IMG/VR virus record: IMGVR_UViG_3300046838_000098
Coordinates: 1-32,232 of that record
Source: a virus
Length of the DNA: 32,232 bases
Strand: one strand, 5' to 3'
Positions within the stretch are counted from its first letter, which is position 1. Every line of letters begins with the position of its first letter. Below are positions 2,322 to 26,607 of the stretch, in pieces. Made by a program: the position numbers and the translations under genes. Under the pieces are notes generated by a model. That model had not been told where the DNA came from and did no database searches. It was given only the letters and a program-made list of their open reading frames with translations.

Positions 2322-2673
2322 TAATTCCTCCCATCACAGCCTTAGCGATGATCCCCGTGAGCATCTGAACTTCCTTGTGAAGTCTCGCACAGGTATCGAG
2401 TGCCTCCAACGTCATGTTGGCATAGCACTCCGTGACCTCTACGAGCTTACCCTCAGTGTAGTCCTGGTCGCAGCGACACTTGTGGACGAATCCATAGCGA
2501 TCTGCGAACTCATGCTCGGCCTTGGCGTTGAACTCTGCGCTCTGTTGGTCCATGAAAGCAACCGTGGAGGGATCAGGCTCCTCAGCTTCCTCGTCGATTG
2601 AGAAAGCAGCCCAATCGTCATCCCCAGGCTCCTCATCATTACCAAAGAGATCATGTACATTATCGTCTGGCAA
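2221..2673 (-). CDS. Acidic hypothetical protein with Cys pairs, downstream of polymerase
   Basis: A protein of about 150 residues I do not recognise. The first third is very acidic (DLFGNDEEPGDDDW, then DEEAEEPD), the middle has a CRCDQD segment and further Cys in a helical region, and the C-terminus is again acidic (PESPEDTVDGDSSDEASE). I use TTG at 2673, which has GGAAGG just upstream and lies inside the last codons of the polymerase gene; a more distant TTG at 2727 is possible. The short acidic motif DLFG could be a partner-binding peptide for the replisome, but that is a guess. It overlaps the gene below by about 100 nt in another frame. Confidence 0.65.
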   Translation of the reverse strand: MPDDNVHDLFGNDEEPGDDDWAAFSIDEEAEEPDPSTVAFMDQQSAEFNAKAEHEFADRYGFVHKCRCDQDYTEGKLVEVTECYANMTLEALDTCARLHKEVQMLTGIIAKAVMGGISVSRIDGPTALGEPQPESPEDTVDGDSSDEASE

Positions 2674-3409
2674 TATACCCTTCCTTGTCGGCCCAGGTGG
2701 TCCTACTAATCTCGCAGGCGACACCAATGGGTACTACAGAAGATACCTCAGCGTAGTCCATCCAGAGCGGGACTTCCCGCACGAGCGTCTCGATCTCGCC
2801 CTCACGGGCATCGAGTTGAACTTCATCATGGACGACGTTGATTAGGTGACTCTCGAACTCCATTGCAATGAGTCTATCGTCCACTGTGACAAGGGAGTTC
2901 CGCATAAGGTCAGCGGCGCACCCCTGTACGAGGGCGTTGAGTTGCTTGTGCTCGGACTCGGGATGGAGTTCCCTTCCGAATAGCGTTGTAATACAGCCCT
3001 TCTCAGAGAGTCGCGCGGATAGTGCGGCCTGCACAATTCGTATTCCAGGCCACCGCTGGTGAAAACGATCCAGCATCTTTCGTGCGGCTGGAAAGCCCAC
3101 CTCAAGCTGACGCATAATCGTCGGCGTCCCTCCCCCGTAGACAAGTGAGAAATTAAGTACCTTTCCGACTTGTCGCTGCTCATCAGTGAGTGTTCCAGAT
3201 ATTCCCAGGGCACCCGCTGCCGATTCGGTATGGAGGTCCTTGCCTGCCTTGATTGCGTCAGCCATGCTCGGATCGCCGAGTACAGCCATATAAAACGCCA
3301 GAAGGCGAAGTTCAATTTGGTCATAGTCAAAGTAAAGCAGGGCGTCCAACTTGGGGATGAACGCCTCCTTGACTACCTTATCCTTCCTCGGGATCGTCTG
3401 TAGATTCAA
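2660..3409 (-). CDS. DNA polymerase I (family A), C-terminal half: palm and fingers
   Basis: This 249-residue product carries the catalytic core of a family A polymerase. It begins at the conserved NLQTIPRKD block, then has motif A FDYDQIELRLLA (catalytic Asp28), motif B (O helix) RQVGKVLNFSLVYG (Arg79, Lys83, Phe87, Tyr91) and motif C HDE (194-196). All catalytic residues are present. The exonuclease and thumb are encoded separately at 3634-4590; the break lies between TGRMSS and NLQTIP, normally adjacent in one chain. The start is TTG, preceded by GAAGGTGGG about 8 nt upstream inside the inserted gene. The two halves add up to about 567 residues, the usual size of a phage exo+pol enzyme, so they probably assemble into one enzyme. 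Confidence 0.85.
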   Translation of the reverse strand: MNLQTIPRKDKVVKEAFIPKLDALLYFDYDQIELRLLAFYMAVLGDPSMADAIKAGKDLHTESAAGALGISGTLTDEQRQVGKVLNFSLVYGGGTPTIMRQLEVGFPAARKMLDRFHQRWPGIRIVQAALSARLSEKGCITTLFGRELHPESEHKQLNALVQGCAADLMRNSLVTVDDRLIAMEFESHLINVVHDEVQLDAREGEIETLVREVPLWMDYAEVSSVVPIGVACEISRTTWADKEGYIARR

Positions 3410-3653
3410 TGACTAGCCCACCTTCGTTTTCAAGCGCCTCGATCTCAGCTTCCGAAGTCCCATCCGCTTCCGCTTCCGGCTCGGGGGTTTCCGTATAGTT
3501 CTTGTGATACTCAAGAATCCACCCTTCAATCAACTCAATTCGGGCTTCGTGACTTACGATGTAATCCCTCAGCGTCGTGAGCATCTTGCCGAGATCGTTC
3601 AATTCTCCCTGGGACACGAATGTCCCCGGTACACTACCGTTCTGCTTCGCCAC
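3378..3653 (-). CDS. Small acidic protein nested between the two polymerase halves
   Basis: This 91-residue reading frame fills the gap in the split polymerase gene. It starts at GTG (3653) with GGAAGG about 8 nt upstream, overlaps the end of the N-terminal half by 20 nt and the start of the C-terminal half by 32 nt, each in a +1 frame step. The product begins MAKQNGSVPG, has a helical middle (LNDLGKMLTTLRDYIVSHEARI) and an acidic tail (PEPEAEADG and DDPEEG). I recognise no family; it is not a homing endonuclease (no LAGLIDADG, HNH or GIY-YIG motif) and has no intein blocks. It may be a polymerase accessory subunit, or an inserted domain if frameshifting joins the three frames. Confidence 0.6.
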   Translation of the reverse strand: MAKQNGSVPGTFVSQGELNDLGKMLTTLRDYIVSHEARIELIEGWILEYHKNYTETPEPEAEADGTSEAEIEALENEGGLVIESTDDPEEG

Positions 3654-4590
3654 TTGACATCCTTCCTGTTCGCGTACCATGCTGGCGATATGAGGGATGC
3701 AGAATGCCACCCCTCTGCTCATCCAGAATGGCTTTTAAGTACGTCCCGTGAATTTTCTTTAGGGTTCTCAGTTCGAGAATTTGCTGCGCGAGGGGGTCGT
3801 CAAGTCCAGCGAGAGTTGTTTTGTCGGTGGACTCAAGGGCGACCCCAATAGCGGCGAAAGCCTCTGTAAGCTGCTTCGGACTATTGGGATTGAATGATTC
3901 AGACCCAACCCGATCCCTAATATCCATTTCGAGAGCGAGTGCTTTAGATGCGTATTCCCGTGCAGCTTCTTCCACGTATTCGACTTTGACACCCATACCT
4001 CGTGTTTCCATTCTGAGGAGAGTAAAAGTAAGTCGCTGCTCAAGTCGGAGGAGTCGAAGTAGATTCTCACTACCCTCAACTTGGGGTCGCAGGATATCGT
4101 GCAGCCGAATGGTGAACTCGGCATCCTTTCGGGCATAGGGTTCTATTACCTCCCTCGGGAGCTTGTCATACCCATCTTTCTTCGTCAGCTTTAACCGCCG
4201 ACGTTCCTTGCGGATTACTTCTTCTTCGTTTGTTTCCTCGCCAAGTAATTCCCGAGCCAGATATTTAAGACCTTTTCGCCTATGCTCATCGAGAAGGTGA
4301 GCGAGACACTCTGTGTCATAGACGGCCTCCGGCCGTAACTCATCTGGATCAAGTATTCCCGCCAATGCCAACTTCTGCAAGTCAAATTTGGCGTTGTGGA
4401 AGATGAGTTCGTCGGCCCCTGCGAGCCGCTGTCGAATCTCGGCCGAATCCTCAGGTAGCGTGTAGAACTCCGTATGAATTCCATCTGCATCGCTTTCTGC
4501 GGTAGTGACAATTACGGCAGTATCAAAGAATGCTACTCCCGTTGTCTCTGTGTCTACCGCCAGTCTAGAAACTCCCGCTTCCAAAGTCAT
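3634..4590 (-). CDS. DNA polymerase I (family A), N-terminal half: 3'-5' exonuclease and thumb
   Basis: This 318-residue product contains a DnaQ-like proofreading exonuclease: ExoI DTETTG (Asp13, Glu15), ExoII HNAKFD (Asp70) and ExoIII YARKDAEFT (Tyr152, Asp156). It continues through the thumb helices to TLAGLDDPLAQQILELRTLKKIHGTYL and the HPSYRQHGTRTGRMSS block that leads to the palm. There it ends after GEAER with a TAG at 3636-3634, so palm and fingers are missing and encoded at 2660-3409. I use ATG at 4590 (AGGA about 5 nt upstream); an upstream in-frame ATG would overlap the Rad52-like gene much more. There is no 5'-3' exonuclease domain, as usual for phage enzymes. Confidence 0.85.
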   Translation of the reverse strand: MTLEAGVSRLAVDTETTGVAFFDTAVIVTTAESDADGIHTEFYTLPEDSAEIRQRLAGADELIFHNAKFDLQKLALAGILDPDELRPEAVYDTECLAHLLDEHRRKGLKYLARELLGEETNEEEVIRKERRRLKLTKKDGYDKLPREVIEPYARKDAEFTIRLHDILRPQVEGSENLLRLLRLEQRLTFTLLRMETRGMGVKVEYVEEAAREYASKALALEMDIRDRVGSESFNPNSPKQLTEAFAAIGVALESTDKTTLAGLDDPLAQQILELRTLKKIHGTYLKAILDEQRGGILHPSYRQHGTRTGRMSSGEAER

Positions 4591-5053
4591 CGCTTCCTGC
4601 TTTCGGGGCATATTTGCGGTCAGTTTCAGCAGCAATTTTCCGCTGCACCGCATCTGGCCCAGGCGCCTTACGCTGCTTGGCAATTACCTGCCGCTCGGCC
4701 TCGTCCCATAGATACAACCCGATGCCGAATTGGTGCCCGGCTTTCTTCAATGCCTCGGCCAGCGCCGTCTTAAGCGCCTTATCGGGATCATTAGCAGTAT
4801 CCGCGCCGACACCCGAAGCAACCTTGCCGAGTGCTTCAATCCTGCCGGTAACAACGGCGAGGTATTTCCCGTCGGAAGCCTGCGTGAGATCACTCTTGGT
4901 GAGCCGGAAGGACCAATCGGCTCCGAGGACATCATTCAGCCTCCTAATGGTGGCGTCGATGGAAATATAGTCAAGTTTCATTCCCCCCTGAGTACGCTGT
5001 TTCACGTCCTCGATGGGAAAATTTTCGCTGAGTTTATCCAATAGCTCGGACAT
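4565..5053 (-). CDS. Rad52/Rad22-like single-strand DNA annealing protein
   Basis: A 162-residue recombination protein of the Rad52 type. The core reads MKLDYISIDATIRRLNDVLG, then a strand with YLAVVTGRIEALG, and a helix block GADTANDPDKALKTALAEALKK followed by AGHQFGIGLYLW, all typical of Rad52-family annealing proteins, which pair complementary single strands during phage recombination-dependent replication. The C-terminus is flexible and ends DDFGSGSF, which resembles a partner-binding tip. The start ATG has AAAGGAG 6 nt upstream. It overlaps the nuclease gene upstream by 20 nt and the polymerase gene downstream by 26 nt, which fits a two-component resection/annealing system with that nuclease. 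Confidence 0.8.
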   Translation of the reverse strand: MSELLDKLSENFPIEDVKQRTQGGMKLDYISIDATIRRLNDVLGADWSFRLTKSDLTQASDGKYLAVVTGRIEALGKVASGVGADTANDPDKALKTALAEALKKAGHQFGIGLYLWDEAERQVIAKQRKAPGPDAVQRKIAAETDRKYAPKAGSDDFGSGSF

Positions 5054-5945
5054 TCAACTCCTTTTCAGTAGGCGTAACTGTCGGCGCAACTTCGGCGTGC
5101 CCCTTACGAGGAAAGTACACACCTTCGAGATCGTAGTGACCAATCTTCGTGTTGCCCTGATTCCGACAGTCGCAGAGTGGGGCTTCCCAATCACAGAAAG
5201 CCGCCGACCAATGCGGTACGCACACAACATTGAATACGGACTTCGTGCCATCCCAGATCAACTTCTGAACCTTGTCCTGCTCAGGTGCCAGGAGGTCCTC
5301 TAATTTATCTCCCCTGGAAAGACCCTCAAATACAGCTTGGACGGCCTTAGAGCGGCTGTGAGCGCGTTCTAGGACCACTTCGGGGGGTAGAGGAGATACC
5401 TCTGCGAGTAGTGGCTCGGGAGATTGGGATGTAATCCGGGTGTCAAAGAAGGGGATGTAGACAACTCCCACCGCATTTAGCATGGGAAGTCCCCTTTCGA
5501 CAAGTGCGTGGAAGTACATTGATAGCTGCCAGATGTGTTCCTCCTTAGCGCCATCGCGCCTCACGAAGAACATACTCTCGCCTTTCACCGTCTTGAGATC
5601 CCCCAGGACGTATGCTTCATAGCCGGGGTGGTAGAAGATGTAGTCTGCCGTACCCGACCAACCCTCAGGCATCCATTCGTCCAACTTGACTTCCGTTTCC
5701 ACTTGCACACCTTGGGACGCAAGTATCCCTTCCGCGTACTTATGCCAGAGGGTTCCAGTCATGTTCCTGAATCCCGATCCGATGCGACGGGGAACGGTAG
5801 GCGCTCCGATGGCTCTGAGTTGAACGTGCCGGAGTGAACCGACAAGATCCGTACTCGCATGGAGTTTTCCATCCGGGGGACGCTGATCCGCTTCTATCGC
5901 TTCGGTGAGCAGGAGGGGTAGATCAACAGGGAAGAGTTCACCCAT
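5034..5945 (-). CDS. Cas4/RecB-like PD-(D/E)XK nuclease
   Basis: A 303-residue protein with a PD-(D/E)XK nuclease pattern: a helix with GTLWHKYAEGIL, then GTADYIFYHPGYEAYVLGDLKTVKG, where Asp in GTAD and the D-x-K of GDLKT form the catalytic site, then HIWQLSMYFHAL as the following helix (QxxxY-like). Near the C-terminus four Cys (VVCVPHW, AFCDWE, PLCDCR) could hold an iron-sulphur cluster or zinc, as in Cas4/AddB-type nucleases, though no N-terminal partner Cys is obvious. It probably resects DNA ends to make single strands for the Rad52-like protein encoded next. ATG at 5945 has AGGAAAGG about 6 nt upstream. It is the first gene after an AT-rich, palindromic intergenic region. Confidence 0.75.
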   Translation of the reverse strand: MGELFPVDLPLLLTEAIEADQRPPDGKLHASTDLVGSLRHVQLRAIGAPTVPRRIGSGFRNMTGTLWHKYAEGILASQGVQVETEVKLDEWMPEGWSGTADYIFYHPGYEAYVLGDLKTVKGESMFFVRRDGAKEEHIWQLSMYFHALVERGLPMLNAVGVVYIPFFDTRITSQSPEPLLAEVSPLPPEVVLERAHSRSKAVQAVFEGLSRGDKLEDLLAPEQDKVQKLIWDGTKSVFNVVCVPHWSAAFCDWEAPLCDCRNQGNTKIGHYDLEGVYFPRKGHAEVAPTVTPTEKELNVRAIG

Positions 5946-6079: not shown

Positions 6080-6403
6080 CTACTCGACAAGGAGCCAATC
6101 TCGATTGATGGCGGAAACTCCCGCTGGCGGAGTATTACTCTCCATTAGCCAACGAAAGAAATCTTCGCCTTCCTCGTCTTTACCCTGAACGGACCGAGTG
6201 CCATTCTCGGCGACTCCCGCTACCTCCTCAGAGGTACCGTCGGGATGTGACCCTCCCGAGAGGTGAACTTCTCCCTGCAAAGCCAGTGTAGCAGTGGTGT
6301 CAAGTGCTTCCTCACGGTAGTCACAGGGGCAGTTGGGGCTTAGGCTCGTGCCCAAGCATTCCCCGAAGTGACACGGAGGGTTGGTCGCATTCTCGTCGTG
6401 CAT
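6080..6403 (-). CDS. Small hypothetical protein with Cys/His cluster
   Basis: A 107-residue protein. The first 30 residues contain CHFGECLG and CPCDY, enough Cys and His to bind a zinc ion; the middle is low-complexity and polar; the end (DFFRWLMESNTPPAG and INRDWLLVE) is hydrophobic and probably ordered. I do not recognise a family. ATG at 6403 has AAAGGAG 6 nt upstream, so the start is well supported. It is the last gene of its run before the AT-rich gap at 5946-6079. Confidence 0.6.
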   Translation of the reverse strand: MHDENATNPPCHFGECLGTSLSPNCPCDYREEALDTTATLALQGEVHLSGGSHPDGTSEEVAGVAENGTRSVQGKDEEGEDFFRWLMESNTPPAGVSAINRDWLLVE

Positions 6404-6405
6404 AG

Positions 6406-6633
6406 TTACTCCTTTTCGCTCGATGTACCAGCCAAAGCAGCGCGAGCGATGCCCGCATAGAACTCGTCGTAACCGGCTCGCACCTGTTCCAGCGCGTCGC
6501 GTAGCTGCTGGTTCTCCGCCACAAGAACATCCCGTTCTCCCTCTACCTTGTCGATGTAGCGGAGCGTGATGCCTTCGGAGAGGTTGCGCGCAGCGTCTCG
6601 CTCGCGGCGGAGGGTGTCGGCGTGTCCGCTCAT
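6406..6633 (-). CDS. Small coiled-coil protein
   Basis: A 75-residue protein starting MSGHADTLRRERDAARN. Nearly all of it has heptad-like spacing (LRRERDAARNLSEGI, then GERDVLVAENQQLRDALEQV), so a dimeric coiled coil is likely. Short coiled-coil proteins of this type are frequent and uncharacterised in phages. I use the ATG at 6633, which has GGAGG 4-5 nt upstream and overlaps the stop of the upstream gene (ATGA); an earlier in-frame start has no such support. The gene ends three bases before the next start. Confidence 0.6.
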   Translation of the reverse strand: MSGHADTLRRERDAARNLSEGITLRYIDKVEGERDVLVAENQQLRDALEQVRAGYDEFYAGIARAALAGTSSEKE

Positions 6634-6824
6634 GTATCCTCCGGTGTATAGGCGACGCATATGGGGTCGCCCTCGATTATCGCTGTTTCGGGTTCGTCTC
6701 CCCAGGCTGGATCACGGTCGAAGAATGCACCACAATCCTCGCACATCCACCTATCGGGAGTTAGGACGACGCAATGATGCTCGGAGGATTCGATGACAGA
6801 ATCATTCTCGAATTCATCCCTCAC
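6630..6824 (-). CDS. Small zinc-finger-like protein
   Basis: A 64-residue protein starting at GTG (6824), MRDEFENDSV. It contains HHCVV, then MCEDCGAFFDRD and a later PICVAY, which is a likely zinc-binding knuckle. GGAGA lies about 8 nt upstream of the GTG, and the GTG overlaps the TGA of the upstream frame (GTGA). A longer frame open to 6962 exists, but the added part looks like out-of-frame sequence. The end overlaps the coiled-coil gene (ATGA). No family recognised. Confidence 0.5.
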   Translation of the reverse strand: MRDEFENDSVIESSEHHCVVLTPDRWMCEDCGAFFDRDPAWGDEPETAIIEGDPICVAYTPEDT

Positions 6825-6991
6825 GAGATTTTCTCCGCAAGCGTGAGCAGCACGATGGCGATGCCACGGCAGACCTTGTACGTGGGCCAAATACAGCAGC
6901 GCCCAAATGGTCCAGCCACACGCCAATCGTTTGCGAGCGTTACTTGCCACTCCCCAAACCACAGGGCCAGCTTCCTACAGGCCGAGGGCAT
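6821..6991 (-). CDS. Small Cys-containing hypothetical protein
   Basis: A 56-residue frame starting MPSACRKLALWFGEWQ. It has four Cys (residue 5, a CC pair, and one in YKVCRG) and a hydrophobic helix near the end (IAIVLLTLAEKI) that could touch a membrane. It is linked on both sides by stop/start overlaps: 17 nt with the gene upstream and GTGA with the gene downstream. There is no clear SD, so translation would rely on coupling. It is called mainly from this linkage and could be wrong. Confidence 0.4.
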   Translation of the reverse strand: MPSACRKLALWFGEWQVTLANDWRVAGPFGRCCIWPTYKVCRGIAIVLLTLAEKIS

Positions 6992-7121
6992 GAGTTAGGA
7001 TTGCGAACGGCCATACCTTCTCGGACAGGAAATGCTCCAATAGGAACGCGCCGTAGGCGGTTAGGCAGCGGGCGCAGAACCTATGCCCGTGCGTCGAGCA
7101 GCGGCCGAAGTGCTGTGACAT
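6975..7121 (-). CDS. Small CxxC protein at the end of the ATP-grasp gene
   Basis: A 48-residue frame starting MSQHFGRCSTHGHRFCARC; the Cys and His spacing suggests a small zinc site, followed by an amphipathic or hydrophobic segment (FLLEHFLSEKVWPFAIL). It starts 41 nt inside the ATP-grasp gene in another frame and has only a weak SD, so translation would depend on coupling. It overlaps the next small frame by 17 nt. It matches the run of tiny Cys-rich proteins in this arm, but evidence is limited. Confidence 0.4.
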   Translation of the reverse strand: MSQHFGRCSTHGHRFCARCLTAYGAFLLEHFLSEKVWPFAILTHALGL

Positions 7122-7824
7122 ACTGCTCGATTCTCTTAGGCGAGAGAGCCGGTGCCGTATTGACTTCAAGGACGTACTCCTTTCCCTCGTGATCCACTAC
7201 CATATCTACGGCTCCGAAGTCGAGGCCAAGAAGCTCAACGGCTTGGATTGCCGCTCTATGGCGGGACGCATTGAGGCCTCGCGCTGGCGTCTTGAATACA
7301 TATCCGTGGGCGTGATTCTTGATGAAACCTCCTTCGGACAGATGGGGTCTTTCGAGATACTTCCTCTGAACGCTAACCACCATCCCTCGGACGACGTGAA
7401 GGCGATACTCGCGTTCATTGGGAATGAACTCAACGTACAGGTCGTGAGGTCCGAGTTGGTCTCCTTGGTCATATACTCGAATCCCACGACCTTGAAAGCC
7501 CTCACTTGTTCGGCCGAAAACAGTAGTTTCCCATTCTTCGGCGATACCTGAACTGACAGACCACCGAGGGATTGGACAATCAGTGTTGGCCAGCGCTTGA
7601 AACGTAGTACACTTTGAACTGGCGCGTCGGATTCCTTCGGCTGAGTTGAGAGTTGCGGGAGTCTCTCGGTCGGGGGATTCCACTCCTCCCCATCGGATTG
7701 CAATTTCCCATGCTCCCTTAGTGCGGGTATGGAAAGCGCAAGAGCCGAAGGGTAGGCCAAGCCCTTTCCCAATGAGTCTGCCCGTGGGACGCCCTGCTGC
7801 ACGGAATGCGAGGACTCTGGGCAC
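7081..7824 (-). CDS. ATP-grasp ligase (RimK-like fold)
   Basis: A 247-residue protein of the ATP-grasp superfamily, enzymes that join a carboxylate (through an acyl-phosphate) to an amine or thiol. Seen: a basic N-terminal part, a central strand block DLYVEFIPNEREYRLHVVRG with conserved acidic residues, QRKYLERP, and the C-terminal AVELLGLDFGAVDMVVDHEG followed by VLEVNTAPALSP, the typical metal/ATP-binding Glu and Asn of ATP-grasp enzymes. The start is GTG with AAGGGGGTG about 5 nt upstream. It sits directly below the class II amidotransferase and amidoligase genes. Such sets are known from phiEco32-type phages and are predicted to make or attach peptides. The substrate is unknown. Confidence 0.8.
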   Translation of the reverse strand: MPRVLAFRAAGRPTGRLIGKGLGLPFGSCAFHTRTKGAWEIAIRWGGVESPDRETPATLNSAEGIRRASSKCTTFQALANTDCPIPRWSVSSGIAEEWETTVFGRTSEGFQGRGIRVYDQGDQLGPHDLYVEFIPNEREYRLHVVRGMVVSVQRKYLERPHLSEGGFIKNHAHGYVFKTPARGLNASRHRAAIQAVELLGLDFGAVDMVVDHEGKEYVLEVNTAPALSPKRIEQYVTALRPLLDARA

Positions 7825-7825
7825 A

Positions 7826-7984
7826 CTACTTCACCCCCTTCAAAATAAAGGTTTGGACAGCCTGCCGACAAGCGAAACAGAGATCGCCTTTCCAGATGAT
7901 GAGGTTATTAGAGACACGCCTGACGGTAGTTTCGTCTACATCATGCGTATCGTTGCACCTATCGCAGTATGTTACGATTGCCAC
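7826..7984 (-). CDS. 52-residue zinc-ribbon protein
   Basis: This very short gene encodes MAIVTYCDRCNDTHDVDE at the start and GDLCFACRQAVQTF near the end: two CxxC knuckles about 30 residues apart, a complete minimal zinc ribbon. The start is GTG at 7984, overlapping the amidotransferase stop (TAGTG) and preceded by GGAGGTG at 5 nt, a very good SD. It stops just before the ATP-grasp start. Its position between the amidotransferase and the ATP-grasp ligase suggests it works with them, perhaps as a carrier, adaptor or substrate, but no family is recognised. Confidence 0.75.
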   Translation of the reverse strand: MAIVTYCDRCNDTHDVDETTVRRVSNNLIIWKGDLCFACRQAVQTFILKGVK

Positions 7985-10026
7985 TATTTCACCTCCGTGA
8001 TTACTACGCTGCCGTCCCTATACGCTGCTACGTCGGCGATTCCCTGCCTGCCTCGACAATGCGAATGGCAGAAGCGGTAGCCATCCAGCCCTGTGAAGTT
8101 AGCTGGGGCGTTGCACTTCGATGCGCCACACTTGTCCCAATGGGAACCGCAGTAAGCCTTCTGCTTGCCGACGAGAGCGTTCTCGACGACGAGCGAGATT
8201 GGCTTTTTGCAGGCCCGATTTCGTGTTCCCTTGCAGCAACAAGCAGTCTCCGTTACCGTAATGGTAACCTCGATCTCGCCCTTTACTTCTTTCGTAGCGC
8301 AGGGAATACACCCCACGCCTTTGAGATAGAAGCCGCTGCAATCCTCGCACCGTTGGAGAGTGGGATTCAAGGGATGCACGTTGTCCGGTTCTCGCTTGAC
8401 AATTTCGACCCCGCAGGACTCCGTGGGCGCCCATACGCAAGCACCACAATGATCTCCATAGGAGAATTGTTCACTGTGCTCCTCGCAGACATACATGACG
8501 CGCTTCTTCTGCCCTGCGATCTCTTCGGAGTAGGCCGTCCAGGGGTACATCTGCTGATCGGCCAATTCCTGCGCTTCTTCCGCCGTGGTCGCCTGATCGG
8601 ATTCCACTTCGGCGGTGATCTCATTCCAGTAATTCGTGACGATTTCCTCATTGAGCTTCTCGTATGCCTTGAGGAGTGCGAACTTGAGGCCGGTCATCCC
8701 GATCCCGAAGTCCTGACTCTTCGTTCCCGTGCGATACATGAGGAAGTCGATTGACCTCTGGGAGAGGCCCGTCTGATCGGAGAGTTCGGCGAGAGTGTAG
8801 CGATGGAGTTTGGCCTCGGTGTCAGCCCAATTCTCCAAATTCGCCCAATCCTCCGCTTTGACAGAAGGGAGGGTGATTCCTTCGATGGGGTCTTCCTCGC
8901 GCTTATTGCCGGAGTCTTTCTGCCATTCCTGGTGACACACGCGGTAGCAATCCTTGCAGATGGCGCCATATTTCAGGTGTGTCGTCATATCCTCGCCCAA
9001 GATGCCGTGCCCGCACATACAGTTGGGCCACTTGAGGTGGCCCTTCACATCGGCGAAGTCTACCTTGTCGTCATAGGATTCCCTGAGATCCCAGCGGCGG
9101 GCCAATTTGAACCCCTCCGGGGGATTGGCGCGGAAATCTGCGACGGCCTTCTTGTAGTCGTTCATGCTGTTGAATATCCCGTTCGTATCCCACGGGCGCC
9201 TGAATGACGCAGCGGGAGCGGGAGTACGGCCTCCTCGAATCCAGGCATATCCATTCTGTCTCTCGACAGGTGGCCGCTGAATGATGGGGCGTGGCTTGAC
9301 CTTGAACTCGTGGACTTCGAGTGCCTTGTAGTCATCGGCGATGAGGAATTTCCCCTCACCTACGAACCGAATTTTGTCAGGCTTGGGCGGAGTTCCCACG
9401 AGATCGCCCCATGTGTCCTTGATGACTGAGGCTTCCGAGGCCCACACGATGCAGTTGTCATTCTCGAAAACATACAACGGGGACGAGGGACCCTTTACCA
9501 GCACGAGGCGGGAGGGATGCCCAATGGGGTCCATCGCAGCGAATGCGAACGATCCCCCCAACTTCTCGATTGCCTCACGAATAGTCTCCGGGGAACCCAG
9601 GCCGTGCTTGTCGAGTAGCGCCGGGATAATCTCCGAATCTACCTGAAAGCGTCTCTCGATTACCTCGTCCTTGAACAAGGCGTCATCATTGTTGATCGAG
9701 CCGTTGTGAATAGCGAAGCAGTTGTTGTAGCTGACGGGGTGGTTATTCCCCATCGTTGCTTCGTCGCCTTTCGTTTTGTATCTCGTGTGCAGGAGTACGG
9801 CCTGAACCCCAGCAGGAAATGGCTCCCTTTCCTTGATGAAATCCGTGGCGCACTTTGCTGCCTTGTCGAGTTTGACGGAGCCAGTCCATCCTACGGCCAT
9901 GTAGCCCGTGGCGTGCTTACCCCGATGCTCGATTTCCAGCAGGAGGCGGTCGCAAAATAGCCCGATATTCTCCTGCGTTACCTTGACCCGTTTGTTCTTG
10001 AGGTATATGCCTGCGATGCCACACAT
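7984..10026 (-). CDS. Class II glutamine amidotransferase fused to zinc-ribbon domains
   Basis: A 680-residue protein. The N-terminus is a class II (Ntn-type) glutaminase: after Met removal it starts with the nucleophile Cys2 (MCGIAGIY), then HRGKHATGY, HTRYKTKGDEATMGNNHPV, HNGSINND and a GGSFAFAAMD strand, which together bind and hydrolyse glutamine to release ammonia. The glutaminase part is about 230 residues. Unlike GlmS or asparagine synthetase there is no recognised synthase domain afterwards; instead the rest has many Cys pairs (CMCGHG, CKDCYRVCHQ, CGAC, CEDCSG, CIPC, and a final CNAP...CHSHCRG block). It lies between an amidoligase and an ATP-grasp gene, which could use the ammonia. 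ATG is at a TAATG overlap. Confidence 0.85.
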   Translation of the reverse strand: MCGIAGIYLKNKRVKVTQENIGLFCDRLLLEIEHRGKHATGYMAVGWTGSVKLDKAAKCATDFIKEREPFPAGVQAVLLHTRYKTKGDEATMGNNHPVSYNNCFAIHNGSINNDDALFKDEVIERRFQVDSEIIPALLDKHGLGSPETIREAIEKLGGSFAFAAMDPIGHPSRLVLVKGPSSPLYVFENDNCIVWASEASVIKDTWGDLVGTPPKPDKIRFVGEGKFLIADDYKALEVHEFKVKPRPIIQRPPVERQNGYAWIRGGRTPAPAASFRRPWDTNGIFNSMNDYKKAVADFRANPPEGFKLARRWDLRESYDDKVDFADVKGHLKWPNCMCGHGILGEDMTTHLKYGAICKDCYRVCHQEWQKDSGNKREEDPIEGITLPSVKAEDWANLENWADTEAKLHRYTLAELSDQTGLSQRSIDFLMYRTGTKSQDFGIGMTGLKFALLKAYEKLNEEIVTNYWNEITAEVESDQATTAEEAQELADQQMYPWTAYSEEIAGQKKRVMYVCEEHSEQFSYGDHCGACVWAPTESCGVEIVKREPDNVHPLNPTLQRCEDCSGFYLKGVGCIPCATKEVKGEIEVTITVTETACCCKGTRNRACKKPISLVVENALVGKQKAYCGSHWDKCGASKCNAPANFTGLDGYRFCHSHCRGRQGIADVAAYRDGSVVITEVK

Positions 10027-12008
10027 TAGCGGCGTCCTGCTGCATTCCGATACGCTTGATCGGCCAACCGCTCCGCTGCGTTAAGATACCGCCGCTCAGG
10101 GGCCTGTCGCACGTAAAGGGGATCATTCAGGACGTTTCCAAACACCTTTCTCTCGGGCTTCTTGACAGCCAATTTCGTTGCTCTGATACAGGTGTTTCTC
10201 GGTGCTACCACCGTGCGATTCCTGGGCGACGGGAGTTCGCGCAATTCGTCGAGGAAGCCATCGGGAAACTCAATGTCAGTCTCGCCAAAGGCGTAAAGAA
10301 GGGAATCCTTCTCATTGGCGGAGAACACGAGCTTCTCGAAGATCCACCTGACGCGCTCCAACGCGACCTTCCGGTGTCCCAGGGTGGTATTCTTCCACTT
10401 CTCCTTCGTCCACCCGAATGTGGGGTACTCATCCTCTTCCACATTCGTCATCTCCTTGGGAGTATCCGCCCATGCGTGAAGTGACTGCATGAACGCGAGC
10501 CATCCGTGGAGAATGCGGGGATTCCCGGTGGAATTCCAGACGCGCCACTCGATTGTACATTTCGGGAGTACGCAGGTGCAATTACGGAGGTTGTCAGCCC
10601 CAGCGCCGCACGCGCAGTATTCCACCGCGTTTTGATACGGCTTGAAGTTGAGTCCGGTCATGCGATCCTGTCCCATGCACGCTCGGAATGCATTACTCTT
10701 GACGCCCCACGGACCCTTTGCGGTCGGGTGGGAATAACCCCTCCCGTTATTGGCCCGATCATGCCCAGGCACCAGCGTCCGGTGGCCGTAGGAGCATCCA
10801 GCGCCCGCGAGGCGGAAGATGACATCTTCGAGGTAGTTGTACCCCGTCACCAGCCGCCAGATGTTGTCCGTCGAGAAATTGTGGGCGTCAATGTGGATAT
10901 GACCCCCGCAGTTGGCGTTATATTCCACTTTCCCCACCTTCTGCAAGGAACGCAGCTTGGCGAGAATTTCCTTGGCGGAGTTCGCGTGCTCGGTCTTATC
11001 GAATTGCAGGAGATACTGGATGAGTTCCCCGCCCGTTACCGAGCCGTCATGCTTGAGGAACGCGGGCCACGATGAGGTATCCGGGCACTTGGTCGAGTAA
11101 CTCTCCACGTATCCCTCGCGGATGTAACCCGCATTGTAGAGAGTATTCGCAAGCGCGTGGGCATCCCCATCCACCTCGGTTTCGATGCTGATGACACGCA
11201 CCGGACGATTCACGAGAGCAGTAAGACGGAGAGAGCCGCCCTTCGGCAATTCTCCCTCATCCCATTTCTCGTGAGGAATACGCTCGGCATCGATGCGGAC
11301 ACCCTGACAGGCACCGCAGAGTCGAACGCCGTCATCTTGCGGGAATACGTAGTCGGAAAATGCCGCACACTCTGTGCAGCGATGCTCCGCTTCGCACTCC
11401 TTGCAGACGAACTTCCCATCAGCCGCAACGAGCATTCCCGCCTCAGCGTGATATCGCCTGCAATACTTGCACCGCTTTCGGGGACAGCAAGTGAGGCACT
11501 TGTCCTTCTCATCCACGACTTGCGCGTGAATGCTGACGTATTCGGAGCATCCCTCACCCGCACAGGGTTTGCAGCAATTCGTGCAATATCGCTGTTTGGT
11601 GTCCCGTCCGCCGATGTAGTGGGAATCCAATCCTGTAGTCTCGCACCAGGAACACCTGTTGAGATAGGCGATCCCATTGCTACCAACGAAGTTGTATATT
11701 CCGAGGGAAACACGCTCCATTCTTCCGAACCTCGGCTGCCACTTGCCATCACCGAGCCACTTCTCCGTTTCTTCCCACGAATCAGTGGTCACTGTATAGC
11801 GGCAGGCGATTCTCCAACCCTCCTGGTGATACGGAGTTGCGAGTTCGGGCGTGAGGCCGTAATGTTTTTCTTTCGCCCAGGTGTATAGGGCATCGAAGGA
11901 GGTCTCATTGAATCCCCTTCCATCGGGGGCGAGATAACCTGCATCCTCGAATACCCATCCCTCCGGGGGCTGGACCACTCTACCGATAACCCTTTTCTGA
12001 ATGGGCAT
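10026..12008 (-). CDS. Amidoligase (glutamine-synthetase fold) with N-terminal zinc-ribbon array
   Basis: A 660-residue protein. Residues about 118-235 hold a dense series of zinc knuckles (CSWC, CTNCCKPC, CLTCCPRKRC-KYC, CKEC, CTEC, CGAC). From about 270 it matches the phage amidoligase family related to glutamine synthetase and gamma-glutamylcysteine ligase: VISIETEVDG (Glu276, Glu278) for metal binding, NCGGHIHIDAH (368-374) and a late TIEWRVWNSTGNPRILHGW block. Such enzymes activate a carboxylate with ATP and couple it to an amine. The zinc array probably recruits a partner or nucleic acid. It is TAATG-linked to genes on both sides and forms part of the amide-bond module. Substrate unknown. 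Confidence 0.8.
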   Translation of the reverse strand: MPIQKRVIGRVVQPPEGWVFEDAGYLAPDGRGFNETSFDALYTWAKEKHYGLTPELATPYHQEGWRIACRYTVTTDSWEETEKWLGDGKWQPRFGRMERVSLGIYNFVGSNGIAYLNRCSWCETTGLDSHYIGGRDTKQRYCTNCCKPCAGEGCSEYVSIHAQVVDEKDKCLTCCPRKRCKYCRRYHAEAGMLVAADGKFVCKECEAEHRCTECAAFSDYVFPQDDGVRLCGACQGVRIDAERIPHEKWDEGELPKGGSLRLTALVNRPVRVISIETEVDGDAHALANTLYNAGYIREGYVESYSTKCPDTSSWPAFLKHDGSVTGGELIQYLLQFDKTEHANSAKEILAKLRSLQKVGKVEYNANCGGHIHIDAHNFSTDNIWRLVTGYNYLEDVIFRLAGAGCSYGHRTLVPGHDRANNGRGYSHPTAKGPWGVKSNAFRACMGQDRMTGLNFKPYQNAVEYCACGAGADNLRNCTCVLPKCTIEWRVWNSTGNPRILHGWLAFMQSLHAWADTPKEMTNVEEDEYPTFGWTKEKWKNTTLGHRKVALERVRWIFEKLVFSANEKDSLLYAFGETDIEFPDGFLDELRELPSPRNRTVVAPRNTCIRATKLAVKKPERKVFGNVLNDPLYVRQAPERRYLNAAERLADQAYRNAAGRR

Positions 12009-12424
12009 TAGTAACCGTCCCCCGGTGCGCCCTCAAGATCGAGCGGCTCGGGGTTAGTGAGATAGGGGTCGGGAATTTCCACCCCATGCTCCAACGAGAG
12101 CGTCTGAGCCTCACGAATGAGGCCCTCCCGATACTGCCAGGGATAGGTGCAGAGATTTTGACACGCTCTCGTGATTGCCCGGTTTTCCAGACGGCCCTCA
12201 GCGAGCTTCTCCCGCCAATTCGGGCCAGCGTAATTTCCGACAGCTTCGTCGAGGGTGAGGTTGAGTGTCTCCAATGCCTCCAAGACCCTGTTGGAATAGA
12301 GCGCCTTTGTGGGGTGCTCCGTCCGGTGGTGGGACTTGATTTTCTCCAAGGCATCGTCCAAGTGATCTGCGTCGTCGAAGTCAAACGGGCACCCGCGACG
12401 CAAGCACCTGCCAAAGATAGCCAA
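12008..12424 (-). CDS. Small protein with N-terminal C2H2-like finger
   Basis: A 138-residue protein starting MAIFGRCLRRGCPFDFDDADHL. The two Cys and a later HHRTEH could form a C2H2-type zinc finger over residues 7-38. The rest is helical (LEALETLNLTLDEAV, then LCTYPWQYREGLIREAQTL) with a Pro/acidic end. The start is TTG, directly after the stop of the PcfJ-like gene, with AAGGAG 6 nt upstream. Its stop overlaps the amidoligase ATG, so the two are translationally coupled. Function unknown. Confidence 0.65.
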   Translation of the reverse strand: MAIFGRCLRRGCPFDFDDADHLDDALEKIKSHHRTEHPTKALYSNRVLEALETLNLTLDEAVGNYAGPNWREKLAEGRLENRAITRACQNLCTYPWQYREGLIREAQTLSLEHGVEIPDPYLTNPEPLDLEGAPGDGY

Positions 12425-13228
12425 TTACTTCTCCTTTCCGATTCCGTTCAGCCACTCTGCAATACGCTTGCCATGTGAGCCGTCCGCCCCTAGCTGGGAT
12501 TTGTTGCTCGCGGATAACAGAATAAGCCACTTGCTGTCGAACTTGAAGCGCCGACCTACGACCCTGATCGCCCCACGATTTTTGGCGAAATTGTCCTCGA
12601 CAGCCTTTGCCGTCTTGACATACGCTGCCCACACATCCTCATCCACATCCTTCGGGCGTGTATTGACGCATTGGGCGGAGCCGATTTGATACGCGAAGGT
12701 ATCGGCATCGTGGTAGTCACGATCTTGGAGCAGGAAGTCGTATGTGCAGGATGTGTAGCGAGCGGGTTTGTATTTCCCCGGTTCGTATTCCAATCCTGCC
12801 TTCTTGAAGCATTCCGTTACGACGGCGAGTGTGGGGTACGTGACATTCCACGTCTGCGCTGCGAGCGGAATTTCCTCCCCATTATCGCGGGGATGCTCCT
12901 TCTGCATCCATGATGCCTGCTTCGCGTGAAGGGTGCTGTGGGGGACGCCTGAGGGGTCGAAGAGGGCGAAGAAATACCAAATGCGCTCCTCGTGTGTCCA
13001 GACGTAATGGGCGCCCGCACAGTGGCCCATAAGGCTTCCCAGGGTCGCTGTGTCGTCGGGGTTATCGATGTAGCCGATGTACCACCCATCGTCCCATTCC
13101 TTCACGTGCTTGACATCGAGCCACTCGTACTCCTGCTTGGCACGGTCGCTCCCTCGCACGCCCTTGACTTTGGGCGCTTCATTGACGAACTCTCCTTCGA
13201 GGGGATTGAATGCGAATGCCTCAGGCAC
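12425..13228 (-). CDS. PcfJ-like protein 1
   Basis: A 267-residue protein with the core pattern of PcfJ-like proteins: LGSLMGHCAGAHYVW (67-77), then RIWYFFALFDPSGVPHSTL (82-100), where an HC-x-G motif is followed by a strand with F/S-L-x-D and P-H-x-T-L. PcfJ proteins occur on plasmids and phages and their biochemical role is not established. A basic segment near the end (RVVGRRFKFDSKWLIL) may bind nucleic acid. I use GTG at 13228 because AAGGAG lies about 7 nt upstream and it overlaps the gene above by 8 nt; a longer frame upstream lacks support. A second PcfJ-like gene is at 14478-15074. Confidence 0.65.
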   Translation of the reverse strand: MPEAFAFNPLEGEFVNEAPKVKGVRGSDRAKQEYEWLDVKHVKEWDDGWYIGYIDNPDDTATLGSLMGHCAGAHYVWTHEERIWYFFALFDPSGVPHSTLHAKQASWMQKEHPRDNGEEIPLAAQTWNVTYPTLAVVTECFKKAGLEYEPGKYKPARYTSCTYDFLLQDRDYHDADTFAYQIGSAQCVNTRPKDVDEDVWAAYVKTAKAVEDNFAKNRGAIRVVGRRFKFDSKWLILLSASNKSQLGADGSHGKRIAEWLNGIGKEK

Positions 13229-13412
13229 GGTCGAACTCCTTGATCTGACGGACTTCACCCCACGGGAAGAACAGCACCGTAAAACCGAGTGCATTCTCGC
13301 TCATTGCTGAGGGGGTGAGCTTCACGCCTTCCTGGGTATGCCGCACGACGACTTCGGCGGACTCGAACTCCACCATTTCGTCGGCCGTGACGACCCTCAC
13401 GATTCTAGCCAT
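13221..13412 (-). CDS. Small hypothetical protein
   Basis: A 63-residue protein starting MARIVRVVTADEMVEFESAEVVV. The pattern of alternating hydrophobic residues suggests a small beta-rich fold (VRVV, EVVVRH, FTVLFFPWGEVRQIKEF). No family recognised. ATG at 13412 overlaps the end of the Cys-rich frame above and its stop overlaps the GTG of the PcfJ-like gene below by 8 nt, so it is tightly coupled within the module. The short SD (AGG at 4 nt) is weak. Confidence 0.55.
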   Translation of the reverse strand: MARIVRVVTADEMVEFESAEVVVRHTQEGVKLTPSAMSENALGFTVLFFPWGEVRQIKEFDRA

Positions 13413-13617
13413 TAACCTGAGTACCGAACGGCGTCAGGGTGAAGTCGTGGATGCAATTACCCCTACGTCCACACACATTCCCGTCCGCATTCAGCTTTTC
13501 GCACGCTTCCTGACGCGCTGCCCTGTCTTGGGCATTTGGAACTGCCTCGGCCAGAGCCTTGCACGTACATCCTCCGGCACATCCAGCGAGGTCAGCAAAT
13601 CCGTTTTCGTCGCACAC
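13405..13617 (-). CDS. Cys-rich protein partly overprinted on an amidoligase gene
   Basis: A 70-residue frame starting at GTG (13617): MCDENGFADLAGCAGGCTC, then QEACEKLNADGNVCGRRGNCIHD. Its many regularly spaced Cys look like a real metal-binding or disulphide protein. The first two thirds run out of frame over the 3' end of the amidoligase gene (13491-13617), which also reads as good protein there. It ends with an 8-nt overlap with the next gene, as the other genes here do. The SD is weak and a shorter version starting at a later GTG is possible, so confidence is modest. Confidence 0.4.
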   Translation of the reverse strand: MCDENGFADLAGCAGGCTCKALAEAVPNAQDRAARQEACEKLNADGNVCGRRGNCIHDFTLTPFGTQVNG

Positions 13618-14291
13618 GAAAGTACCACCCTTTCTGTAACTGCATGATCGACGAGTCTCTGGCAGAACTTGATCCACGCGACAGCTTTCGTTGCATTGAG
13701 GCAACCCTCGTGCAGCCTGAACTCCACGGTCCCATGCTCGGGAATGCTCTGGAAATTCAGGCCCTTATTTCGGGTGCCCCAATCCTTATTCCATAGATCA
13801 CCTCGCCAGTTGTCGTAACCCCTGATATTGCTGCCAAGTTTCTTGATTTGATTCTCCTGCAACGCCGAACACCGAGGCGACCTGAGGCGGTGGGAAGAAC
13901 ACATACGCGCGATGAGTTCCTGATTGTTGTACCAAGTACGGGCGAGGATTTTTGCTGCCTCCGTATCCTCCCCCAACTCCTTCGCGCCCACATGGACGTG
14001 CATCCCATCCGACTTCGTGATGTAGCAACCGAGGTCGAAGAGGAAATCCATGACTTTCGTGAGCTTATTGAAGCCCGCGTCGCCCTTGAGAATTGGCGTC
14101 CTAACTTCGACGCCCGAGCCGTCGCGACCAACACCGTAGCGCAATTTTGTCGCTTGTCCCGTTTGGACCGGGAATTTTGCGACGCGCATGGCTTCATAGA
14201 CTGCGTAGTACGTTTGATTATTCCAGGGGTCGGTGCTGCTCGTGCGATACCCGCATTCGATTTCGACGCCGAAGGTCCGCTCACTTCTCAC
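13491..14291 (-). CDS. Amidoligase (glutamine-synthetase fold), single domain
   Basis: A 266-residue stand-alone amidoligase. Motifs in order: RTFGVEIECGYRT (Glu10, Glu12; metal/ATP), GVEVRTPIL (60-68), GMHVHVGAKEL (96-105) and GTVEFRLHEGCLNATKAVAWI (about 192-212). These are the signature blocks of Amidoligase_2-type enzymes, which form amide bonds by way of an acyl-phosphate, in the same superfamily as glutamine synthetase and the pupylating ligase PafA. I choose GTG at 14291: GGAGG lies about 8 nt upstream, the protein then starts just before the first motif as in relatives, and overlaps the small gene above by 11 nt. Two amidoligases in one cluster suggest two different substrates or steps. 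Confidence 0.8.
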   Translation of the reverse strand: MRSERTFGVEIECGYRTSSTDPWNNQTYYAVYEAMRVAKFPVQTGQATKLRYGVGRDGSGVEVRTPILKGDAGFNKLTKVMDFLFDLGCYITKSDGMHVHVGAKELGEDTEAAKILARTWYNNQELIARMCSSHRLRSPRCSALQENQIKKLGSNIRGYDNWRGDLWNKDWGTRNKGLNFQSIPEHGTVEFRLHEGCLNATKAVAWIKFCQRLVDHAVTERVVLSCATKTDLLTSLDVPEDVRARLWPRQFQMPKTGQRVRKRAKS

Positions 14292-14415
14292 TGGCGAGCC
14301 TCCGTAATTCGGATGCGATATACGTCCCCACGAGTTTGATGACTGCCGTTCCATGGGGAACGTGCTTGTCCGATTTGGTCGAATTGTTATCGACCGAGTG
14401 GAACAAAGTAGCCAT
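14281..14415 (-). CDS. 44-residue hypothetical protein
   Basis: A short protein starting MATLFHSVDNNSTKSDKHVP. The second half, GTAVIKLVGTYIASELRRLAS, would form one amphipathic helix. ATG at 14415 has AAAGGG about 5 nt upstream. It overlaps the amidoligase GTG by 11 nt, so it is coupled to it. No Cys and no known domain. It could be a small partner or peptide substrate of the amidoligase, but this is only a positional inference. Confidence 0.55.
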   Translation of the reverse strand: MATLFHSVDNNSTKSDKHVPHGTAVIKLVGTYIASELRRLASEK

Positions 14416-14453
14416 GTAACCCTTTCTGTCGTATTCCAGGGCACACGCTACAA

Positions 14454-20689: not shown

Positions 20690-20909
20690 CGTGTGTGCGC
20701 GGGGGAATATATGCGCGCATGATTGCTTGGCGTGTGCGTGTGTGCGTGCGCCTACCTAATTTTATTCCGCTTGCACGTGATTTTATCACGCTTGGGTGCG
20801 TGATTTTATACCGCTTGGGCGATATTCCCATCGTGCGCGCGGGCGTGCGGGCGCGTGTGCGCGTGCGCGCGTAGGTGCGCGTGCGCGTAGGGGTGCGCGT
20901 AATGGATAC
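20690..20909. repeat. Long alternating purine-pyrimidine (GC/GT) tract
   Basis: Two blocks, about 20690-20755 and 20833-20909, are made of runs such as GTGCGCGTGTGTGCGCG. Alternating purine-pyrimidine DNA of this type favours left-handed Z-DNA and structural flexibility. The blocks flank the 21-23-bp repeats. Open frames through this tract are repeat artefacts. Confidence 0.55.
20759..20823. repeat. Three tandem 21-23-bp repeats (iteron-like), with central dyad
   Basis: Copies at 20759-20779, 20780-20802 and 20803-20823 share ATTTTAT, then C(C/A)CGCTTG, then a GTG-like end. A partial copy may lie at about 20721-20740. The junction of copies 1 and 2 forms a perfect dyad CGTGAT-TTT-ATCACG (20776-20790). 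AT-rich repeated sites within a GC-rich tract are typical of initiator or regulator binding clusters. Confidence 0.55.
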
Positions 20910-20992
20910 GCGCGGGCACGTAGGCGCGGGCACGTAGGCGCGGGCACGTAGGCGCGGGCACGTAGGCGCGGGCACGTAGGCGCGGGCGCATG
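20910..20992. repeat. Five exact 14-bp tandem repeats GCGCGGGCACGTAG
   Basis: Perfect head-to-tail copies at 20910-20923, 20924-20937, 20938-20951, 20952-20965 and 20966-20979, followed by a degenerate copy to about 20992. The unit length is not a multiple of three, so it does not encode a peptide repeat in one frame. The absence of mutations between copies suggests recent expansion or selection. Confidence 0.85.
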
Positions 20993-21180
20993 ACGTGCTG
21001 GCAAGCACGAGGAAGCGCCGATGTGGGGATTCGGGGTGCGCGCAGGGTACGGGGATACCCCTAGAACGCCATAGGAGCGCCGTAGGCACGATGGTAGCCG
21101 GAATCAATGTCAGGAGTAGGGGTAGGGGTCCGCAGGCGCTTAGAATGGCTTAGAACGCCTCAGGCCGAAATCGCCCCCGG
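20993..21180. other. Short gene-free segment
   Basis: No gene is seen between the 14-bp repeats and the terminator of the 21236-21607 gene. It contains GGGG-ATA-CCCC (about 21049-21060) and a repeated GCTTAGAA word at about 21139 and 21150. Confidence 0.35.
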
Positions 21181-21208
21181 AACGCAAGAACGCCCGCTTG
21201 CGCGGGCG
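21181..21208 (-). terminator. Leftward terminator-like hairpin below the 21236-21607 gene
   Basis: CGCCCGC (21191-21197), TTGC, GCGGGCG (21202-21208): a perfect 7-bp GC stem with a GNRA-type GCAA loop in the leftward transcript, followed by TTCTTGCGTT. The U tract is imperfect, but its place about 30 nt after the stop codon fits an intrinsic terminator. Confidence 0.5.
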
Positions 21209-21235
21209 CTCCTGCCGATTAGGTGAGGGGTGATG

Positions 21236-21607
21236 CTAGGCGAGAACTGAGGAGACCACGTCATCCGCATACGCGGTGACGATGTGATTCGTCACGCCGT
21301 TCTTGCCAGGGTAGGAGAATGCCGCGCCGCACGTAGTGGGGATCGAGTGCTTATCGATTGCCCACCGCTTCCACGTATACGTGCGGATCTTGACGGGCTT
21401 GGCCGCCGCCTTGGCCGCCTTGGCCGCCTTCGTGCGCCCGTCCACCTTCCGCGCGGGGAGAGAGGGGGGACCGGGATTCGTGGACACCTCGGCAACCGGC
21501 TCGGTTGCAAGGGTGGTGCCATTGAACGCGCTGACAATCGCGCTCAACTGTTCGGGCGATGCGCCTGCCGCGACCGCTGCCGAGATGAGATCCGTGATGC
21601 CTGCCAT
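21236..21607 (-). CDS. Monocistronic protein sharing the AGASPEQL motif; basic linker
   Basis: A 123-residue protein. It begins with ITDLISAAVAAGASPEQL, related to a segment in the middle of the 19214-19843 protein (TDL...AFNG aligns with 16 of 26 identities), then a Pro linker, a Lys/Ala-rich patch (GRTKAAKAAKAAAKPVKIR) and a C-terminal part TYTWKRWAIDKHSIPTTCGAA and GVTNHIVTAYADDV. The Lys/Ala patch resembles histone- or HU-tail DNA-binding sequence. ATG at 21607 has AGGAGG 6 nt upstream. It has its own terminator-like hairpin and a TATAAT far upstream, so it is probably a separate early transcript. Family not recognised. Confidence 0.65.
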   Translation of the reverse strand: MAGITDLISAAVAAGASPEQLSAIVSAFNGTTLATEPVAEVSTNPGPPSLPARKVDGRTKAAKAAKAAAKPVKIRTYTWKRWAIDKHSIPTTCGAAFSYPGKNGVTNHIVTAYADDVVSSVLA

Positions 21608-21681
21608 GTGAATCCTCCTGCTACCGACCGGCGGGATTGCCGATCGAGTCCCACCTTGGACGAGCGCCGACCCCAGCGCAA

Positions 21682-21735
21682 TCCCCCAAAAGGGTGAGTT
21701 TTCGGCGAAAAAGGCCGCTATTTGCGGACTTCTGC
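21682..21735 (-). repeat. Divergence-zone element, copy 2
   Basis: TCCCCCAAAAGGGTGA (21682-21697) identical to copy 1, then AAAAA and CCGC-TATTT-GCGG (21715-21727). Read leftward this is a 4-bp hairpin CCGC-AAATA-GCGG followed by CC and five T, which resembles a weak intrinsic terminator or attenuator in the leader of the 21607 gene. Confidence 0.5.
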
Positions 21736-21749
21736 CTCGCGTAGCGCGG

Positions 21750-21855
21750 GGGTGCGCCCGCGTGATGACAGGCGCGAGCACGCACGCGATAACACGCGCT
21801 ATGCACGCGCACCATGCACGCGATGACACGCGCATGACGCGCGCGCGTTAGGAAG
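21750..21855. repeat. Imperfect GCGC/CACGCG repeat patch
   Basis: Short words CACGCG, GATGACA and ATGCACGCG recur in tandem (for example ATGCACGCG at about 21800 and 21812), giving a second alternating GC-rich patch like that at 20690-20909. Upstream of the 21607 gene. Confidence 0.5.
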
Positions 21856-25824: not shown

Positions 25825-25882
25825 ACGAAAGGAAGATACCTTGGAAGTCCTACACCCTACTGCACTCCTGGGGGAACCCAAT

Positions 25883-26293
25883 ATGTGCATCATCTGCGAG
25901 GAGACGCCTAAGCCCTCTGAGCAGAGTGTAATCGACACTGAGCATACCATGATCGCCCCCTTCTCGGACAACGTATGGCATAAGTACATCTGCGAGAAGT
26001 GTGGCCTTGAGATCGCCAATCGCCTGGGGTACATCTCCAATAAGCAGGCAAAGGCTGCATTCGATGCCGCCGAGGCCGCTGCGAATCGCCTCAACGTCGT
26101 GAGAGAGAAAGTCCTCTCCGCCGCTGAGGATATTCACTCATTCGCTACGGATGTCACCCTGGGTAATGAACGCTCAACTGTCGGAAAAACTGTCGAAGGA
26201 GAAGTCGTTGAACCTGCCACGCTCCCCGCTAGTGAAAAGAAGGCGGCTGCAAGAAAACCGAAGGTTGCTGTCGGCAGCACTTCTACTGATTGA
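25883..26293 (+). CDS. Zinc-knuckle and helical protein between terminase and portal
   Basis: A 136-residue protein: an N-terminal MCIICEETPKPSEQ and a second KYICEKCGLEIANRLGYIS form a zinc ribbon; a long Ala-rich helix follows (KQAKAAFDAAEAAANRLNVV) and the end is Lys/Ala/Pro-rich. I use ATG 25883 (GGGGGA about 7 nt upstream); TTG at 25841 with AAAGGA 7 nt upstream is a real alternative that adds 14 residues and would close the gap to the terminase. No family recognised; could be an auxiliary packaging factor. Confidence 0.6.
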   Translation: MCIICEETPKPSEQSVIDTEHTMIAPFSDNVWHKYICEKCGLEIANRLGYISNKQAKAAFDAAEAAANRLNVVREKVLSAAEDIHSFATDVTLGNERSTVGKTVEGEVVEPATLPASEKKAAARKPKVAVGSTSTD

Positions 26294-26597: not shown

Positions 26598-26607
26598 GGA
26601 GGGATAG

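Follow-up and report, generated by a model that had tools for sequence, protein, structure and literature searches.

A family A DNA polymerase split into two genes at one site across a phage clade, with changing genes at the break

How is a family A DNA polymerase (PolA) produced when its gene is divided in two and a third, out-of-frame gene lies at the break? The question is raised by the window, by which we mean the whole stretch of DNA that was analyzed, a linear IMG/VR record of 32,232 bases that may be a fragment. Its terminase large subunit and P22-type portal genes, found on the plus strand at 24307-29121, mark it as coming from a tailed phage. On the minus strand, an overlapping run of genes encodes an exonuclease-like protein, a Rad52/Erf-type annealing protein, the N-half of PolA, a 91-residue insert, the C-half of PolA, and an acidic protein. 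The original prediction, made from the letters alone, had three minus-strand frames at the polymerase that overlap by 20 and 32 nt, each overlap being a +1 step, and the ORF listing returns the same arrangement:

4565-5053, minus strand: single-strand-annealing protein of the Rad52/Erf type (ORF; PF04098, 7.4e-15).
3634-4590, minus strand: PolA N-half, with 3'-5' exonuclease, thumb, and palm up to TGRMSSGEAER and the stop codon (ORF listing, Pfam, relatives' alignment, AlphaFold2, Foldseek).
3634-3653, minus strand: 20-nt overlap of the N-half stop and the insert start (ORF coordinates, sequence).
3378-3653, minus strand: 91-residue acidic insert protein, GTG start (ORF listing, codon usage, composition).
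3378-3409, minus strand: 32-nt overlap of the insert stop and the C-half start (ORF coordinates, sequence).
2660-3409, minus strand: PolA C-half, with fingers and the palm with motifs A, B, and C, TTG start at MNLQTIPRKD (ORF, Pfam, relatives, AlphaFold2, Foldseek).

Overlaps of this size are usual locally, as the annealing gene overlaps the N-half start by 26 nt and is itself preceded by a gene (5034-5945) that overlaps it by 20 nt. The SD-like sites that had been predicted are present: AGGAAGG lies 7 nt upstream of the insert GTG at 3653, and AAGGTGG lies 8 nt before the C-half TTG at 3409. This TTG is the first usable start of the C-half because only a single codon, which is not a start codon, is open above it; the insert frame is open further upstream than its GTG, to an ATG at 3722. 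Because the genes form one overlapping minus-strand run, their translation is probably coupled.

Elsewhere in the window, a minus-strand cluster at 7081-14444 may serve to modify peptides or the wall; it has a glutamine amidotransferase domain at 7984-10026 (PF13522, 7.1e-15), amidoligase-like proteins at 10026-12008 (PF12224, 8e-5) and 13491-14444 (PF12224, 7.4e-20), and a weak ATP-grasp match at 7081-7824. Tandem repeats occupy 20759-21845, including a 14-base unit in 5.6 perfect copies at 20910-20987.

The two halves are complementary. Pfam assigns the N-half to PF01612 (4.7e-18) and to profile positions 2-124 of PF00476 (3.5e-15), and the C-half to positions 127-380 of the same PF00476 (8.9e-46), so that the two together span the family A profile. 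The catalytic motifs expected from the original prediction can all be read in the translations. DTETTG, HNAKFD, and YARKDAE (ExoI, ExoII, and ExoIII) are in the N-half together with TGR-x-SS, and DYDQIELR, RQVGKVLNF, and HDE (motifs A, B, and C) are in the C-half. When profiles of the halves were mapped onto the Klenow chain 1d9d_A, the N-half covered residues 30-348 and the C-half 352-601. This leaves three residues between TGR-x-SS and NLQ-x-IP, in agreement with the predicted spacing, and it assigns the palm's first segment, TGR motif included, to the N-half and the remaining palm to the C-half. The same spacing was sought in intact loci by a regular expression that fitted 12 of the 58 (11 different sequences) and not the remaining 46; it was three residues in 10 and four in one. 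AlphaFold2 predicts each half with confidence as its own part of the polymerase (mean pLDDT 93.7 for the N-half and 93.8 for the C-half), with pLDDT low at the last N-half and the first C-half residues. The best PDB matches of the N-half model in Foldseek were family A polymerases, and the C-half model gave a TMq of about 0.87-0.88 to the Bacillus fragment and Klenow. A split intein was considered and rejected: the N-half has just five residues after SS, and MN opens the C-half, leaving no room for intein segments.

Relatives were gathered by N-half scans and C-half scans, with the window's own copy (L001) added, to give 224 loci from the best 80 matches per scan. A script then sorted 225 records, the window included, into 58 in which the frames of the halves differ, 124 in which the halves share a frame, and 43 that have one half or neither. 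The 58 comprise the window, L001, two loci that are treated separately below (L023 and L121), and 54 loci from 40 contigs. At least 40 other IMG/VR contigs thus carry both halves, and all 40 are cut at the window's site. The usual state of a family A DNA polymerase is a single polypeptide, but in this clade 41 of 41 contigs, counting the window, are split, and split at one place, among the matches listed. One C-half scan pattern includes the MN start and is therefore biased to split genes; 19 of the 40 contigs came from N-half patterns away from the junction, and none of the 19 is intact. The intact records from the N-half scans, among the matches listed, are all distant, with at most 34% identity. 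No uninterrupted close relative was found among the matches listed, and the proposed split thus stands; as 40 other contigs share it, sequencing error is ruled out as its cause.

A tree was built from the 83 rows that remained after near-copy removal, 31 of them split (including L023 and L121) and 52 intact. The tree, from a quick search and with several long outgroup branches, unites 29 split rows in a single clade (SH-aLRT 100) and leaves the 52 intact rows outside it. The clade is a deep one, the aligned C-halves of its representatives being 41-54% identical. Separate N-only and C-only trees with seven intact rows each need one split/intact change, and from these alignments a single split event for the clade would be the simplest account. 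The best-ranked rows among 50,697 phage records, a collection that may not include the entries nearest to the window, are only about 33% identical to the halves tested, and no close DNA match to window positions 1-25000 was found among those phage records. The host search yielded no relative from the scan of genome contigs.

Several loci were kept out of the clade or its counts. The gap in L023 is at a different place: its PolA (6101-7272) is broken at motif B (KAIN / TFG) by a 1171-nt gap that contains a 305-aa ORF. L121, kept apart with L122, is a distant PolA (3265-5807) that is split at the same site as the window. An HNH endonuclease gene (PF13392, 1.2e-8) lies in its gap and overlaps the N-half stop. 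L121 is a second, independent split at this site. L093 was not counted because its contig has only the C-half and a fragment of a GT2 glycosyltransferase. Within the clade, L118 has a disrupted C-half frame.

Alignment shows that the relatives' C-halves begin with ATG at the same residue as MNLQTIPRKD of the window, and most clade members have a C-half start codon at this first residue. At that position L089 has ATT, with an in-frame ATG nine codons up, and L162 and L173 have ATA (1615) and ATC (7190), respectively, with no in-frame ATG, GTG, or TTG above. A simple coupled start does not explain these last two, for which an unusual start codon or another route of expression is possible.

If the site of the cut is fixed, its contents are not. 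Four of the 41 contigs (L104, L113, L114, and L174) have no insert at all, and their N-half stop and C-half start share ATGA or GTGA. A GT2 glycosyltransferase (PF00535, 3.8e-18) is in the gap of 26 contigs, alone or with other ORFs, and is the sole gap gene in 16 (gap length 764). The count agrees with tblastn, which found 37 loci, i.e., the 26 contigs, 10 second loci of those contigs, and L093. Small acidic ORFs stand alone in four (L085, L086, L101, and L103), a SLOG-like protein, with a match to PF10686 (4.9e-6) just under the curated cut-off, is present in three (L003, L004, and L118), and other genes fill the remaining four (the window, L117, L162, and L173). The relatives' inserts are complete genes, each with a start and a stop of its own, and many of them terminate precisely at ATGA; gap length modulo 3 takes all three values across the clade. 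Insert class has changed at least seven times on the N tree or at least eight on the C tree. L112, with GT2, and L114, with no insert, have C-halves that are 98.1% identical in DNA, but N-halves that are only 79.7% identical, making recombination near the junction likely; the L112 insert has GCATGA on both flanks. The four empty loci, to the extent fetched, gave no match to the GT2, SLOG-like, and small proteins tested, and neither did the rest of the window. As a control, the outer gene boundaries were compared: one gene family is common to 18 of 25 rows upstream of the N-half, and 17 rows downstream of the C-half fall into six families. Variability at the break resembles what is seen downstream of the C-half; the halves were therefore treated as separate genes. 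The gap is best explained as an ordinary gene boundary where cassettes come and go.

The window's own insert is, as predicted, an acidic 91-residue frame in its own right, with 22 D+E, 5 K+R, and a pI of 4.05. Its codon usage scores 0.257 in frame and resembles that of seven window genes in frame (0.136-0.234), whereas the other two frames of the same strand score -0.05 and -0.04, so the insert looks coding. It has no Pfam or PHROG match, and there is accordingly no endonuclease gene at the window's own break. No relative was found in the viral contigs searched or in any locus fetched, and comparison with the small ORF of L003/L118 gave no meaningful match (hhalign probability 0.24%). Weak PDB matches to prolyl 4-hydroxylase (E 0.0078 and 0.011) were rejected as chance helical or composition similarity. 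The protein is best read as exchangeable cargo rather than a dedicated polymerase subunit.

We consider it highly probable that PolA is made here as two separately translated chains that assemble into a family A polymerase, that the insert is cargo, and that the arrangement most likely originated with a homing endonuclease. What argues for two assembling chains is the combination of tight overlaps, a fixed start residue, all frame relations between the halves, and a gap that is occupied by complete and unrelated enzymes in some members and empty in others. The N-chain, with the exonuclease, the thumb, and the first palm segment with its TGR motif, would be made separately from a C-chain that starts at NLQ-x-IP and supplies the fingers and the remainder of the palm, including motifs A, B, and C. 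The chains would meet non-covalently, with the loop from TGR-x-SS to NLQ as the point where the Klenow fold is completed, and the 91-residue protein would not be required for the polymerase as such.

As to origin, HNH-type endonuclease-like ORFs occur in the gaps of L089 (phrog_2255, 6.6e-22), L118 (phrog_5046, 6.8e-6), and L173 (phrog_5046, 3.6e-8), i.e., in 3 of the 41 contigs of the clade. The one case outside the clade is L121, whose unrelated polymerase has such an ORF (phrog_7545, 2.6e-21) at this same site. Endonuclease-like genes at the break in these four make homing-endonuclease insertion the likeliest origin, and the sequences suggest a course of events in which such an endonuclease entered a then intact ancestral gene at its conserved TGR..NLQ coding site. 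The halves would have persisted from then on as two genes, and the endonuclease would have disappeared or given way to other genes. It is equally conceivable that the split came first and that an endonuclease invaded it afterwards. A more far-reaching idea, to which we give a distinctly minor share of belief, is that the endonuclease scar at TGR..NLQ has become a permanent ATGA cassette slot in an essential gene, where glycosyltransferase, SLOG-like, and small acidic genes are swapped; replication would then need two chains to meet, and the acidic proteins may aid their assembly.

The 91-residue protein could instead be a dedicated third subunit or assembly factor of a two-chain polymerase, made by coupled translation. 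Acidic small ORFs do recur beside the break (pI 4.05 in the window, 4.05 for the 63-aa protein of L085, and 4.28 for the 57-aa protein of L103), and phage MEP401 has a 77-aa acidic ORF of pI 4.70 at another split site. However, the window protein is without a match in any other locus and without a meaningful one to the L003/L118 ORF, the gap is empty in four contigs, and in 16 the glycosyltransferase is its sole gene; we regard this possibility as improbable. It was the first of three options in the original prediction, whose separate chains and coupled translation are well supported by the relatives; its accessory-protein role is not, as the gap genes of relatives are unrelated or absent.

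That the polymerase is a decaying pseudogene, with another enzyme replicating the phage, is conceivable in that a 32-kb linear record, if a fragment, could come from a genome with a second polymerase elsewhere; that both halves keep their motifs, their frames, and folds predicted with high confidence throughout a deep clade makes it a poor prospect. The other two options of the original prediction fare slightly worse still, and variable gap content together with a variable frame relation between the halves makes both very unlikely. Two +1 frameshifts, giving one long polypeptide with an inserted domain, would suit the +1 step needed at both overlaps of the window, but not the three frame relations of the clade, the independent insert genes such as GT2 that end at ATGA, or the start codon kept at one first residue in most members, and a GT2 enzyme inside the palm is implausible. 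Introns do occur in phage DNA polymerase genes, as the authors describing MEP401 remark in the part of PMC10580990 available, but a small intron removed from the RNA is at odds with insert-free contigs that are still split, with the coding codon usage of the insert, and with Rfam, which matched no group I/II intron or other RNA in the whole window or, at a lax threshold, in 3300-3750, and only tRNAs in 12 relatives.

The preferred two-chain reading points to a natural two-chain family A polymerase that a deep phage clade has retained, with the cut falling inside the palm, between two conserved motifs. Natural cases with and without inserts, with C-halves 98% identical, would suit tests of split-polymerase assembly and of whether endonuclease scars turn into gene-exchange sites. 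The natural split site may also be of use in polymerase engineering. Annotation pipelines would otherwise call two partial polymerases or a broken gene.

Several known enzymes invite comparison. The Klenow, Taq, and Bacillus PolI large fragments are single chains, and the window's halves match complementary parts of them. The nearest known case is in the Methylophilales (OM43) phages MEP401 and MEP402 (OP830906 and OP830907), for which the available part of PMC10580990 describes a split DNA polymerase and raises an intron as a possibility. As in the window, a family A enzyme is divided there into exonuclease-half and polymerase-half genes with a small acidic ORF between them. However, the cut does not coincide with that of the window, being about 25 residues further on: the N-half ends in SSSPNLQNFDGEIKTLFLSRYGE and a stop codon, and the C-half starts with MILNADAKALEWV, just before motif A. 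By eye, the small ORF is unrelated to the window's insert. No split family A polymerase other than that of MEP401/402 was recognized in a search of the open-access literature; the parts seen of PMC6892783, PMC7824862, and PMC11348598 deal with split PolB with an intein and split PolIII, and no split PolA was found in them. Nor was a paper on the TGR..NLQ split site found in the open-access literature, which of course does not show that none exists.

Two-chain replicative polymerases are also found in Aeromonas phages 25 and 44RR, in which gene 43 (43A/43B, PolB) is split and its parts are separated by either a homing endonuclease gene or untranslated sequence (PMC2988022, seen in part). This is a family B enzyme with another fold and another site, and the portion of the article at hand does not describe exchange of metabolic cargo. 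The split PolB chains of phage 25 co-purify and are active, and Aeh1 nrdA, split by mobE, is active as two chains (both from the same portion of PMC2988022). NrdA is a ribonucleotide reductase, and the endonuclease that is still present in Aeh1 has no counterpart in the window. That two-chain pairs of this kind can work is thus known from precedent in PolB of phage 25 and NrdA of Aeh1 (PMC2988022, in part), and by analogy the pair described here would probably be active. Split phage polymerases as such are already known; what is new here is the different site, its retention by a whole clade, and the changing cargo.
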